Part shown: positions 7,911 to 15,294 of the stretch, piece by piece | Numbering within the stretch: position 1 is the first letter of the stretch | How the letters are laid out: each line of letters starts with the position of its first letter | Source of the DNA: Blastopirellula marina | GTDB taxonomy: Bacteria; Planctomycetota; Planctomycetia; Pirellulales; Thermoguttaceae | Direction: 5' to 3' | Assembly: GCA_020721965.1 (NCBI GenBank) | Contig: DYLS01000039.1 | Span: 1 to 41,316 of the forward strand | Length of the DNA stretch: 41,316 bases | The notes under the pieces: generated by a model | What the model saw: the letters and a program-made list of their open reading frames with translations, nothing else | Told to the model about the DNA's origin: nothing | The model's database searches: none | Translations under genes and position numbers: made by a program

Positions 7911-7938
7911 CGAGGCCCGGCCTCAAGGCCTGGCCTCG
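7911..7938. terminator. Strong hairpin between convergent genes, overlapping the kinase stop codon
   Basis: CGAGGCC-C-GGCC (7911-7921) pairs with GGCC-T-GGCCTCG (7927-7938), around a short loop TCAA and with one C/T mismatch. The kinase TGA (7925-7923) lies in the loop. A GC-rich stem at the junction of convergent genes suggests bidirectional termination or a 3'-end barrier, although there is no T-tract on either side. Confidence 0.5.
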
Positions 7939-10064
7939 ATCGCTTGCCGTTCCCCGGCTCCACGGAGATCGCTCGCCGCCGTGCTGCGTTCGGCATCTGC
8001 CGTGCTGCGTTTTGCGTCTTGGGAGAGTAGAGCCTGCCGTGCCCGCGATACCAAGTCGGATGCCCAAGGCTTTTCACCATACAGGGCAATCACCGCGCGA
8101 CGGATGGCGTCGGCCTGCGTCGGATTCTCCGCCTCCAGTTGGTCGGCCTCGTCCAAGCGTTTGGCGGTGAGGTCGATTTGAGTTTCGATCAGGTCGCGCA
8201 ATTCGGCGCGCATCCGCGCGAGACGTCGGCGGGCCAGCTCCAGACATTGCCCGGCCGTCCCCCCTTCCAGCAACCGCGGTTTTTTCTCGCCCGCTGGCTT
8301 GGCCTCAGTCGCTCCCTGAGCTTCCGCGGCGTCGCCAAGCGGGGAAATGTCCGAGCCGTAGAGCGTAATCAAGGCCTCGAGACGGCGCATTCCCTCCTCG
8401 GGGTCGAGCTGGGCGTATCGCACGGCTTCCAGGTAGCCGCGCTCGATGGGAATAGCGCCAGCCGCGTTGCCACGGCGCCGCGCATCGAACTCAAAGCGCC
8501 GTTCCAGCCGCTGCAATTCGATCTCCTGTTGAAATTCACGCACGGTCGCCGCGCGGTAATCGCCAGGGAACCGCGACAGGAACTCCTCGATCTCGCCCTC
8601 CGCTGCGGTCAGAAGATCCGGCGTCCCGCTTTCGGTACGGGCCATGATCCGCGCGTACAAGGCATCGGCGGTGGGCGGTTGCAGAAAGTACCAGATCCCG
8701 CCGCTCAGCAGGAGCAAGGCCCCGGCCAAGACCCAGGTCTGGATCGAAACCAAGGGCCGCGCAGGGGCTGGCGGCGGCTCGACCTGATCCAGTTCGTCGG
8801 GGGAGACTGTCACAAACCGGGCACTCTTGTTGGAAATCGTCCCGGCAGGGGGCGACTCGGGACGATCTGCACTGCCGGTGCCGGAGGTGAGAGCCGGCGA
8901 TCGCACGGGAACCGTTCCCTCGGCAGGCGCCGGTGAGGCGGCGGGGGCGGACTGGGCGAGCGGATAGCATTCGAAGGCATCCGTTTCTCGCGTCTCGTCC
9001 CACATGGATGGCGTTCCCAACGCGGCGGGGTGGGGGGCATCAATCGCGGGTTCCGGCCCCGCACCGCCTTTTTCCCTAGGGGCCGTCACGGTCGGTGAAG
9101 GTGGCGGCGTAGCGGGAGCGGCGTCGATGGCCCGCGTAGCCGCATCCGCCAAATGCGATGATGGGTCCTCCATCCCTTCCTCGCCGGGTACACCGAACGC
9201 CATCAAATCGGCGGGCACGGACGCGGCATTGGACTGCTCTTGCTTCGTCAAGGCATGCAGCATCGCCTGCAACCGCCGCCCCACCAGCGAGGCCGTGGCG
9301 ATCCGCCGGTCGGGATCCTTCGCCAGCAGCTCTTGGAGAATCCGATCGAGTCCGTCGGGCACCTGAGGGGCGTACAAGCGGACCGAATCCGGAGTAGCGT
9401 GACGATGCAGTTGCAAGATTTCCGCGAACGATCGCACCTTGAACGGTGGCCGTCCCGTCAAAAGCGCATACATCACTGCACCCAGGCTGTACAGGTCGGA
9501 CTTCGGTCCGACGGGCAAGGCCTCGGCCTGTTCCGGCGCCATATACTCGATGGTCCCCAACACACTCCCCGCCCCCGTCTGGCCCGCCATCCCAAAAAGC
9601 CGCGCTATGCCGAAATCGGAGAGCTTGACCGTTCCATCCTCCGTGATCAGGAGGTTGGCGGGTTTGAGGTCGCGGTGGATAATCCCGCGATCGTGAGCGT
9701 GCTTCAGCGCCCGGCAAACCTGGATGCCGATCTCCGTCGTCTCGCGCCAAGTAAACAGCCGCCCGCCGCGCAATTCGTCTTCGAGGCTCCGGCCGCGAAT
9801 CAATTCCATGACGTAAAAAAGCACGTCATCCTGTTCGCCAAACCCCAGCAGACGGACGATGTTGGGATGCCGCAGCTTGCGGAGGGCCTCGATCTCCAGC
9901 TCGAATCTTCCGCGAAAATCGCTCTCCTGGGCCAGGGTCAGGGAGAGGATTTTCACGGCGGCAGGCTCGCCCGTCTCCTCGTGGACCGCCTCGAAGACCA
10001 CGCCCATGCCACCACGGCCCAGACGCCGGATCACTCGATAGGGGCCAAGTTGCTGGATGTCCAT
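7923..10064 (-). CDS. Membrane-anchored Hanks-type Ser/Thr protein kinase
   Basis: The cytoplasmic kinase domain would phosphorylate Ser/Thr on proteins. The start is ATG 10064, with GGAGGAGG 6 bases upstream. Visible landmarks are the glycine loop LGRGGMG (15-21), Lys38 in AAVKIL, HRDLKPAN with catalytic Asp132, DFG at 150-152 and MAPEQ. The catalytic domain ends near residue 270. A Pro/Ala/Ser-rich linker of about 160 residues follows, then one membrane segment (about 444-461, WVLAGALLLLSGGIW), then an outside domain of about 250 residues, Arg/Glu-rich and probably helical. No PASTA or other sensor domain is recognised. The last residues contain two 21-base coding repeats (7978-8019, KRSTADAERSTAAS). 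Targets are unknown and the neighbours give no clue. Planctomycetes carry many such kinases. Confidence 0.92.
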   Translation of the reverse strand: MDIQQLGPYRVIRRLGRGGMGVVFEAVHEETGEPAAVKILSLTLAQESDFRGRFELEIEALRKLRHPNIVRLLGFGEQDDVLFYVMELIRGRSLEDELRGGRLFTWRETTEIGIQVCRALKHAHDRGIIHRDLKPANLLITEDGTVKLSDFGIARLFGMAGQTGAGSVLGTIEYMAPEQAEALPVGPKSDLYSLGAVMYALLTGRPPFKVRSFAEILQLHRHATPDSVRLYAPQVPDGLDRILQELLAKDPDRRIATASLVGRRLQAMLHALTKQEQSNAASVPADLMAFGVPGEEGMEDPSSHLADAATRAIDAAPATPPPSPTVTAPREKGGAGPEPAIDAPHPAALGTPSMWDETRETDAFECYPLAQSAPAASPAPAEGTVPVRSPALTSGTGSADRPESPPAGTISNKSARFVTVSPDELDQVEPPPAPARPLVSIQTWVLAGALLLLSGGIWYFLQPPTADALYARIMARTESGTPDLLTAAEGEIEEFLSRFPGDYRAATVREFQQEIELQRLERRFEFDARRRGNAAGAIPIERGYLEAVRYAQLDPEEGMRRLEALITLYGSDISPLGDAAEAQGATEAKPAGEKKPRLLEGGTAGQCLELARRRLARMRAELRDLIETQIDLTAKRLDEADQLEAENPTQADAIRRAVIALYGEKPWASDLVSRARQALLSQDAKRSTADAERSTAASDLRGAGERQAIEARP

Positions 10065-10501
10065 GGGCGACCTCCTCCGTAAAACACGTCGCCAAAATGA
10101 CAACACCCGATGCGGCGTCCCTGGTTGGCGATCCGCCCCCGGACCGATGCTCCGCCATCACTTGCCACTCACCCCGCCAGCCGTCCACCGAAAAGCGTGA
10201 CGATCGAGCACCTTTTACGCCGTCGTCCCGCAGCAAAATCGCCGATCCGACGCGCAACCTACCCGGCCAGCCCGGCCTAGCCCAGATTAAGCATTCGTGC
10301 GTTTTCCAGCCAAGTAAACCCCTATTCTAGGGGGGGATTCCATAGTGTCCCGACATGGATAGCCCCCATCCTACCCCTACAGCGCAAAATCCGCCGGATT
10401 GGATGATGTACCCAGCATATCTTGGGTGGCGACAGGTCTCACATCACCACAAATTATTGACCCAACCAAACGATCCTGCGCTGGAGTATGAAATGGAAGC
10501 G
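10065..10501. other. Intergenic region upstream of the kinase gene
   Basis: About 430 bases with no convincing gene. It should contain the kinase promoter, but none stands out. A small palindrome CCCCTA-TTC-TAGGGG lies at 10319-10332. Nothing else was seen. Confidence 0.4.
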
Positions 10502-12975: not shown

Positions 12976-13118
12976 ACTTTCGCGAACATTAGAGGACTTG
13001 CTCGTCCCGGCCGTTCGTGCGCCGCGCTACGAGCCTCGCCGCGCGGGCCGTGCACGTATGTGCGGATGACGCAAACCGCCATTCATCCCGTTGCGCTATT
13101 AGAACGAACACGCGACCT

Positions 13119-14102
13119 ATGCCATTTTCCCGATTCGATCGCAGCCGATTGGAACTTCGCCCCTTGTCGGAGCGTGCTCACGACCTGGACCTCTCATGTC
13201 TGATCGATCCGCAGGCCCCGGCACCGGACTTTGCTCACCCCGCCATCCCGCTTTTGGCCCAACGAATCGTGGAGGCCCGCCGCCGGGATGCGGCAGTGAT
13301 CTTTTTCTGCGGGGCTCATGTCTTGCGGCAAGGCAACGGACTGCTGCTGATCGACCTGATGCGGCGAGGCTTGTTGACGCATCTGGCCCTGAACGGCGCG
13401 GGGGCCATCCACGACTTCGAGTTCTCCATGATTGGAGCCACCACGGAGAGCGTGGCACGCTACATCAAGGAAGGGCAGTTCGGGCTGTGGCGGGAAACCG
13501 GCCGCATCAACGAGGCCGCGCGGCAAGCCGCCCGCGACGACATCGGCCTGGGCGAGGCCATCGGCCGCATGATCGAAACCGAGGCCTTTCCCCATCGCCA
13601 CGTCAGCGTGCTCGCCGCCGGGTTTCGCCTCCGAGTTCCGGTTACGGTTCATGTAGCGATCGGGCAAGACATCATTCACGAACATCCTAATTTCGATGCG
13701 GCCGCGACCGGCAAGGCCACCGACAACGACTTCCTGGTGTTTTGCCATAGCGTGTCGCGGCTGGAGGGTGGGGTCTATCTCAACATCGGCTCGGCCGTCG
13801 CCGGCCCGGAGGTCTATCTCAAGGCCCTCAGCATGAACCGCAACGTCGCCCGACAAGAGCACCGCCAGATTCGCCACTTCACGACCGCCGTCTTTGATCT
13901 CATCCCGATCGAATCGGATACGTCTCGCGAGGCCCCCAAGTCCGATCCACGGTACTACTACCGACCGTATAAAACGGTTTTGGTCCGCACGGTGGCGGAT
14001 GGGGGTGAAAGCCACTACGTCCTGGGCGAGCATCGCCGCACGGTTCCCACGCTGTATCATGCCATCATCGCCGCGGCGGAGTCGACGGCAGCCAAAACGT
14101 GA
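13119..14102 (+). CDS. Conserved-looking protein, possibly deoxyhypusine-synthase-like fold
   Basis: I do not firmly recognise this 327-residue protein. It is soluble, with no signal or membrane segment. The stretch VIFFCGAHVLRQGNG followed by a helix and then LTHLALNGAGAIHDFE recalls the NAD-binding part of deoxyhypusine synthase relatives, where a VDxxVTTGAxxxHD pattern occurs. However, the catalytic-lysine region of that enzyme is not evident. Other patterns are IGATTESVARYI, IIHEHPNFD and GSAVAGPEVYLKAL. ATG 13119 is assumed without a clear ribosome site; GTG 13017 would add 34 residues of poor composition. It lies between the HAD and RNase HII-like genes, 143 and 88 bases away, so they may be cotranscribed. 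The fold is inference only. Confidence 0.6.
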   Translation: MPFSRFDRSRLELRPLSERAHDLDLSCLIDPQAPAPDFAHPAIPLLAQRIVEARRRDAAVIFFCGAHVLRQGNGLLLIDLMRRGLLTHLALNGAGAIHDFEFSMIGATTESVARYIKEGQFGLWRETGRINEAARQAARDDIGLGEAIGRMIETEAFPHRHVSVLAAGFRLRVPVTVHVAIGQDIIHEHPNFDAAATGKATDNDFLVFCHSVSRLEGGVYLNIGSAVAGPEVYLKALSMNRNVARQEHRQIRHFTTAVFDLIPIESDTSREAPKSDPRYYYRPYKTVLVRTVADGGESHYVLGEHRRTVPTLYHAIIAAAESTAAKT

Positions 14103-14190: not shown

Positions 14191-15294
14191 ATGGCCACGG
14201 ACACCTGTTTGTTTATCGGAACCGACGAGGCAGGCTACGGCCCGACGATGGGACCGCTGGTCATTGTCGCCACGCTTTGGCAAGCCCCTTCCAACGCGCC
14301 ACCGGAGACCTGGTACACCCGACTAGCACCTGCCGTCTTGGCCCCGCACGACCCGGCCCTTAGCAAACTGCGAAAGCTAAGCGGCAAACGGCGAAAGCCA
14401 AGCGGCGACCACGCAGCCCGGCGGATGGAGGCAGCCGCTGGCGGGGATCGCACCGGCACGGATTTCGCGTCTGCCGCCCCGCCGTGCGTCATTGGCGATT
14501 CGAAGCAGGTCTATCGCTCGCATCGGGGATTCCCCGACCTCGAGCACGCCGCCATGACGTTGCTCCGCTGGTGCGGCGTCGAGACAGATACGTGGCGGGA
14601 GCTATTGCGTCGCCTCGACCCCGCCGCCTTTGCCGATTGCATCGGCTTGCCCTGGTTTGCCGACTTCCACGCCAAGTTACCGCTCTCGATAAACGAGGGC
14701 GTGACGGCTGATGCCGTCACCCGTTCGGCCCTGGCCGTGCGCCAGATCGGCGACACGTCGGGCGTCCGGCTTCTCGATCTCCGCTGCCGCTTCCTTTGCG
14801 AGCCGCGATTCAACGCGCTGGTCCGCGAGCACGAGTCCAAGGGCCGCCTCCTTTCGCTCCAGACCCTCGACCTCGTGTGCGACCTTTTGAACTGCCACGC
14901 GGACGGCCGCGAGGGATGGGTGTACTGCGACAAGCACGGCGGTCGGAATCGCTACAGCGAAGCCCTCTATACAAGCTTGGCGCCGGATTGGATCGAAATC
15001 TTGCACGAAGGCCAGGAAGAGAGCCGATACCGTCTCGGTCACCCGCGAGAGAAGTGGGAGATTCGCTTTACGGCTCGCGCGGACCAGCTCTTGCCCGTCG
15101 CCGCCTCATCCCTGATCGCAAAATATCTGCGGGAACTGGCGATGCGTGCGATGAACGCCTTTTGGACGGCCCGACTCCCTGGCCTGCCTCCCACCGCGGG
15201 CTACCCCCAGGACGCGGAGCGGATGCTGCAAAGCATCGCGGACCTGCGGGAGTCGCTCGGCATTCCGACGGATTGGGTCCGCCGCCTCAAATGA
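14191..15294 (+). CDS. Enlarged RNase HII-like protein
   Basis: The 367-residue product carries features of RNase HII in order. These are GTDEAGYGPTMGPLV (Asp12, Glu13; family DEAGRGPLAGP), DSKQVY (103-108, family DSK), an acidic beta strand YCDKHGG (Asp247), and ADQLLPVAASSLIAKYLREL (Asp298; family ASIxAKxxRD). It ends with a GLPPTAGYP motif like the family's GY-T segment. All four metal-binding carboxylates thus seem conserved, so cleavage at ribonucleotides in DNA or RNA-DNA hybrids is plausible. Normal RNase HII has about 200 residues; extra segments lie at about 40-100 and 110-240. It may be a planctomycete paralog with another nucleic-acid target. ATG 14191 has GAGG upstream. Its stop codon lies in a duplicated 36-base segment. 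Confidence 0.68.
   Translation: MATDTCLFIGTDEAGYGPTMGPLVIVATLWQAPSNAPPETWYTRLAPAVLAPHDPALSKLRKLSGKRRKPSGDHAARRMEAAAGGDRTGTDFASAAPPCVIGDSKQVYRSHRGFPDLEHAAMTLLRWCGVETDTWRELLRRLDPAAFADCIGLPWFADFHAKLPLSINEGVTADAVTRSALAVRQIGDTSGVRLLDLRCRFLCEPRFNALVREHESKGRLLSLQTLDLVCDLLNCHADGREGWVYCDKHGGRNRYSEALYTSLAPDWIEILHEGQEESRYRLGHPREKWEIRFTARADQLLPVAASSLIAKYLRELAMRAMNAFWTARLPGLPPTAGYPQDAERMLQSIADLRESLGIPTDWVRRLK

Follow-up and report, generated by a model that had tools for sequence, protein, structure and literature searches.

The gene at positions 14191–15294 (+ strand) of the window, i.e., of the whole 41,316-nucleotide stretch of Blastopirellula marina DNA analyzed here, probably encodes the form that RNase HII takes in planctomycetes, a separate lineage of type 2 RNases H that performs the job of RNase HII; we assign this reading a probability of roughly 0.75. 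The open reading frame starts with ATG and comprises 367 codons, and its product is matched in two stretches by PF01351 (Pfam RNase_HII) at 37.7 bits, above the gathering cut-off of 25.8. The original prediction, an RNase HII-like enzyme of nearly twice the normal size, agrees with this match and with the lengths, which are 367 aa for the window protein, 198 aa for E. coli rnhB and 215 aa for L031, an ordinary RNase HII of the phylum (a ratio of about 1.7–1.85). The proposed mechanism of the enlarged family is ordinary, and what is unusual is its form and its distribution, because it occurs phylum-wide in the place of RNase HII.

The catalytic carboxylates that had been predicted, DE, D247 and D298 in the order of RNase HII, are in register with those of ordinary RNase HII, as are the DSK loop, K311, R314 and Y338. 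The segment DEAGYGP (residues 12–18; 14224..14244, this and all following features of the protein being on the + strand) carries the first two catalytic acids, D12 and E13, together with the putative G-x-G motif for the 2′-OH, in which Tyr replaces Arg. It is followed by the DSK loop (residues 103–105; 14497..14505), by the third catalytic acid, D247, within DKHGGR (14929..14931), and by the fourth, D298 (15082..15084), which stands in the context RADQ..VAASSLIAKYLRE, the fuller stretch carrying it being RADQLLPVAASSLIAKYLRE. The segment from K311 to R314 (15121..15132) is RNase HII-like, in contrast to RNase HIII, and GYP (residues 337–339; 15199..15207), within TAGYP, contains the putative junction-sensing Y338. 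The acids were assigned by alignment, and the roles of the G-x-G motif, the DSK loop and the tyrosine follow passages of a structural study of the Thermotoga enzyme (PMC3025331).

The spacing of these elements had been described as much larger than normal, and this holds for each interval: DEAG to DSK, DSK to the third Asp, and the third Asp to the fourth acid are separated by 91, 144 and 51 residues in the window protein vs. 33, 65 and 31 in L031. The additional length lies in three inserts, which adjoin the DSK loop and the fourth acid. Insert 1 (residues 34–97; 14290..14481) is 64 aa long and partly disordered in the predicted structure, in which segments with pLDDT below 50 lie between residues 67 and 88; insert 2 (residues 106–192; 14506..14766) is helical, and insert 3 (residues 274–294; 15010..15072) is a beta hairpin. 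In an alignment of the window protein with 27 relatives (A1; 28 rows, representing 28 of the 30 loci of the homology search, with L017 and L025 left out), the median lengths of the three inserts are 25, 84 and 21 aa. Total length over the same 28 rows is 306–376 aa with a median of 320, which the window protein exceeds mainly by about 40 residues before DSK, in insert 1.

The AlphaFold2 model of the window protein, for which 28 window and locus sequences served as input, has a pLDDT of 90.3 and a pTM of 0.90. A predicted structure without an RNase H fold had been named in advance as the refuting outcome; the model instead shows an RNase H fold in which the type 2 active site is complete. Type 2 RNases H top the list in a Foldseek search, and superposition by VIA-align gives RNase HII 1eke as the best match (Z 19.1, 2.5 Å over 203 residues) and a Z of 17.3 for Thermococcus RNase HII 1io2. 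The first 25 PDB entries by VIA-align are type 2 RNases H throughout, and the next entry is an Argonaute at 5.8. Profile comparison by hhalign likewise relates the enlarged family to the ordinary RNase HII of the phylum (98.9%, E 2.4e-17). A search of Pfam, NCBIfam and PHROGs for known domains in the extra parts yielded only RNase HII/HIII models, apart from a sub-threshold phage zinc-binding match (E 0.3). For insert 2, the main insert, folded alone (pLDDT 86.4), the best PDB entry is at E 3.2 and does not count as a match, a result that does not establish a new fold. There was no match at E ≤ 0.001 among the viral structures searched, none of 43 pattern-matching stretches of viral contigs encodes a relative, and the plasmids searched for relatives gave no match.

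Some of these comparisons also accommodate a general RNA/DNA hybrid nuclease of the RNase HIII kind rather than a junction enzyme, an alternative that we regard as unlikely. Thermovibrio RNase H3, with a Z of 18.2, comes second among the fold matches, less than 1 below the best; the hhalign probability for RNase HIII (98.6%) nearly equals that for RNase HII, and the fourth acid is Glu, as in RNase HIII, in 22 of the 28 A1 rows and Asp in the other six. The window protein, however, has GYGP rather than the GKGD of RNase HIII, contains Y338, and has its catalytic DE already at residues 12–13, which leaves no space for the N-terminal substrate-binding domain of RNase HIII, given as about 80 aa in passages of a review (PMC9719913).

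The same distinction emerges from the tree of type 2 enzymes (35 rows, 195 columns, unrooted), which comprises 14 of the 28 enlarged proteins, 10 RNase HII rows including E. coli, and 11 of the 42 RNase HIII rows of alignment A3. It resolves three clades, namely the enlarged family (support 100/99), RNase HII (97/90) with E. coli RNase HII as a long branch, and RNase HIII (100/99), so that in this unrooted tree the enlarged family falls outside the RNase HII clade; its stem is long, at 1.58 changes per column. At the K311, R314 and Y338 columns the RNase HII-type state is found in 14/14 enlarged and 10/10 RNase HII rows, whereas in the 11 RNase HIII rows the first is Arg or Ser, the second Phe, and the third is never Tyr, which speaks against an RNase HIII-like enzyme. 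Among the 14 enlarged rows of the tree the fourth acid is Glu in 10, and the Arg of GRG has become Tyr in 13 and Leu in one.

The family thus shares with RNase HII/RNase H2A (rnhB; PF01351; TIGR00729, PRK00015) the common RNase H fold, the D-E-D-D/E acids, the DSK loop, the lysine and arginine of the long helix and the tyrosine in the GYP loop, and differs from it in length (306–376 vs. 198–215 aa), in the three inserts, in GYG for GRG, in a fourth acid that is mostly Glu, and in forming a separate clade. With RNase HIII (rnhC, TIGR00716) it has in common the type 2 fold and, in most members, the Glu, and it differs in the tyrosine, in the RNase HII-type K and R, and in having neither GKGD nor the N-terminal domain. 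The window protein is not filed as RNase HII proper, because it stays below the NCBIfam equivalog cut-offs for RNase HII (24.6 vs. 167 and 22.3 vs. 123.3 bits), has no GRG arginine and is placed outside the RNase HII clade.

Conservation across the family is strict at the active site. D12, E13, D103, S104, K105, D247, K311 and R314 are invariant in the 28 A1 rows; both glycines of GRG are present in 28/28, with Tyr (26/28) or Leu (2/28) at the position of the Arg, and the Y338 column has Tyr in 27/28 and Ser in L024. All 28 rows match PF01351 at E ≤ 0.01 and NF000595 at E ≤ 0.001 (best 7.5e-10). It is therefore very improbable that the gene is a pseudogene or encodes a relative without catalytic activity. 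Nothing was found in favor of such a reading, and it is opposed by the catalytic columns in 28/28 rows (the fourth place being Asp or Glu), by listed matches that have no internal stop, and by the presence of the protein in 131 of the 134 genomes that are at least 90% complete and at most 5% contaminated. The inserts have invariant residues of their own, E118, W155 and P164 in insert 2 and S278 and Y280 in insert 3, each in 28/28 rows. In the best 80 of at least 564 loci, picked by the motif DEAGYGPxL, the junction tyrosine is present in 80/80, Glu is the fourth acid in 77 loci and Asp in three, and the insert residues are kept in 80 (E118), 67 (W155), 79 (P164), 80 (S278) and 80 (Y280). The inserts are probably structural or provide an extended surface for a substrate or partner; the substrate recognition that the original prediction suggested for the added part is plausible. 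R365 was considered as a second arginine that steadies the GRG motif; this was not borne out, and its column has Arg in 1/10 RNase HII rows.

The profile search for orthologs, which had been proposed along with the original prediction, places the enlarged protein in most of the phylum. The window protein as query found it in 219 of the 246 genomes of the phylum sample, its own genome included, and the A1 profile matched 228 of them at E ≤ 0.001. Seven of the 228, all carriers of ordinary RNase HII, have E-values from 7e-4 to 7e-6 and are counted as cross-hits, because ordinary RNase HII reaches 29–38 bits with A1 (9/9 rows) and the best 15 of 42 RNase HIII rows reach 25–32 bits. Their removal leaves 221/246 genomes, and in two of these the match is weak or partial (G104, E 1.5e-15; G189, E 1.1e-10). 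A scan of a genome collection, which used the motif DEAGYGPxL and whose counts at that motif are biased accordingly, gave at least 564 relatives. Of the best 80 of these, 78 have planctomycete titles, including Blastopirellula marina and Bythopirellula, where we take the genus names in the titles to be planctomycete; the other two are entitled ‘bacterium’ (L056) and ‘Nealsonbacteria’ (L068). These titles suggest Planctomycetota as the phylum of the genome sample.

Ordinary type 2 enzymes in the same 246 genomes were sought with PF01351, which matched 193 genomes at E ≤ 0.001. The 85 matches that were read (the best per genome below E 1e-18, the second of G026 and five of family f42) comprise 71 RNase HIII (DE.GKGD), nine ordinary RNase HII and five DETGTGE proteins. 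Each of the 42 RNase HIII rows placed in A3 is matched by rnhC TIGR00716 at E ≤ 0.001, and L031, the one ordinary RNase HII checked, reaches 221.5 bits with the NCBIfam RNase HII model (cut-off 123.3). Weaker matches, listed to E of about 5e-5, cover short terminal portions of the profile, lie in frames of at least about 300 aa, and are assumed to be the enlarged protein. The five DETGTGE proteins (L192–L196, in G085, G045, G066, G135 and G103) read DETGTGE where RNase HII has DEAGRGP, and their open frames span about 500–670 aa. They resemble the enlarged family in matching PF01351 and in coming from the same phylum sample, and differ in the motif and in that they co-occur with the enlarged protein instead of replacing it, since the five genomes, all of one family, carry both.

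The enlarged protein and ordinary RNase HII are found in 221 and nine of the 246 genomes, respectively, both in none and neither in 16, of which 14 are less than 90% complete. This exclusivity has a chance probability of 2.6e-10 if the genomes are assumed to be independent, which they are not. The presence of a normal rnhB elsewhere in the genome had been suggested as a check; in the genome of the window (97% complete) and in a single-contig genome of the same genus, there is no PF01351 match at E ≤ 0.001, i.e., no ordinary RNase HII or RNase HIII, and RNase HI is present in both. The PF01351 search was positive in 14/14 control genomes and is blind to divergent forms, including the enlarged proteins of these two genomes; the null result therefore concerns the ordinary forms only. 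Rather than accompanying a normal rnhB as an additional enzyme, the enlarged form is present instead of it in most sampled genomes.

Among the 221 genomes with the enlarged protein, 131 have RNase HI only, 50 RNase HIII only, 14 both and 26 neither, so that RNase HI and RNase HIII mostly alternate while the enlarged protein persists. RNase HI or RNase HIII is already alongside it in 195/221 genomes, which further argues against a general hybrid nuclease of the RNase HIII kind. Because 26/221 genomes have neither, the division of labor is not universal or genes were missed. Missed or divergent RNases H may be hidden in these 26 genomes.

A tree of RpoB from 29 genomes (19 with the enlarged protein, eight with RNase HII and two with neither; a 198-aa fragment of G037 was dropped) indicates at least three changes between the enlarged and the ordinary state over its 27 labeled rows. 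This bears on whether the family has switched its substrate, for instance to a structured RNA or to an intermediate of DNA, for which the inserts would form a new recognition surface, ribonucleotide repair being carried out otherwise. The long stem, the three inserts with their own invariant residues, and the change from GRG to GYG are in keeping with such a switch, which we nevertheless judge improbable, somewhat more so than an RNase HIII-like activity: the absence of ordinary RNase HII from all 221 genomes, over at least three changes of state, argues for the same role, and the glycines and tyrosine that read the 2′-OH are retained.

RNase HII carries out the first step in removing ribonucleotides from DNA, and an RNase HII-like working of the enlarged protein is the best-supported interpretation. 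Most likely, the enzyme would act on duplex DNA at RNA-DNA junctions, cutting 5′ of the ribonucleotide with two-metal catalysis by D12, E13, D247 and D298. The 2′-OH would be sensed by Y338, through its hydroxyl, and by the backbone of the GYG glycines, and K105, K311 and R314 would hold the phosphates and the motif. Such a junction cut would initiate ribonucleotide excision repair and also take away the final ribonucleotide of primers. Bulk RNA/DNA hybrids would presumably fall to RNase HI, or to RNase HIII elsewhere in the phylum.

In the Thermotoga structure, according to the passages of that report drawn on here, the 2′-OH at the junction is read by the GRG backbone and Y163, the Y163F mutation has a severe effect, and type 3 enzymes have no such tyrosine (PMC3025331). 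The retention of the tyrosine therefore points to junction cleavage. The GYG and Glu deviations appear compatible with activity, because, in the same passages, R22A keeps activity on most substrates with a small loss on a single ribonucleotide (PMC3025331), and because RNase H3, as described in part of a further study, is strict only for the glycines of the motif and has Glu206 as its fourth acid (PMC4132731). More tentatively, the family may constitute a third type 2 class beside RNase HII and RNase HIII, which replaces ordinary RNase HII in most of the phylum, reads junctions by GYG and uses phylum-specific inserts to bind the substrate or a partner from replication or transcription; we consider this possible, though less likely than not.

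An enlarged form in place of the ordinary enzyme may explain reports of planctomycetes that have no RNase HII. In the sections consulted of a 2007 survey, the sole planctomycete genome is placed, by elimination, in Group E, with RNase HI only (PMC1950709), and those of a 2025 paper on digester planctomycetes describe Planctomycetota, from KEGG annotation, as largely devoid of rnhB (PMC11929135). No word starting with ‘planctomycet’ occurs in the 2022 review of RNase H diversity (PMC9719913), and a literature search that covered a minority of subscription journals found no paper describing the enlarged family. The family can fill the rnhB gap of the phylum and presents a well-defined target for annotation. 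As an experiment of nature, it could also show which elements of the junction reader, built from GRG and the tyrosine, are indispensable.

The neighbors of the window gene had been described as not being DNA-repair genes, and none of the four that were searched has a repair-gene match above cut-off. A HAD hydrolase and a GSU2086-family protein lie upstream, the protein downstream on the opposite strand matches an endonuclease/exonuclease/phosphatase model below threshold (E 0.035), and an aldolase-like protein is also among the four. Across 80 loci (the best 80 of at least 564; flanks of 5 kb, some incomplete, with neighbor names assigned by eye), the commonest neighbors are a SufS-like protein downstream (19/80), a histidine-phosphatase-like protein downstream (15/80) and a large protein mostly upstream (15/80). 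No repair gene was recognized in the 14 neighbor clusters listed for these loci, and genomic context says little on function, because none of the 14 contains a neighbor from the window. The GSU2086-family protein, encoded directly upstream at 13107–14099 (+), reaches 392 bits with NF052581 against a cut-off of 250, and a frame at 7923–10106 (-) of the window was recognized by eye as serine/threonine protein kinase-like.
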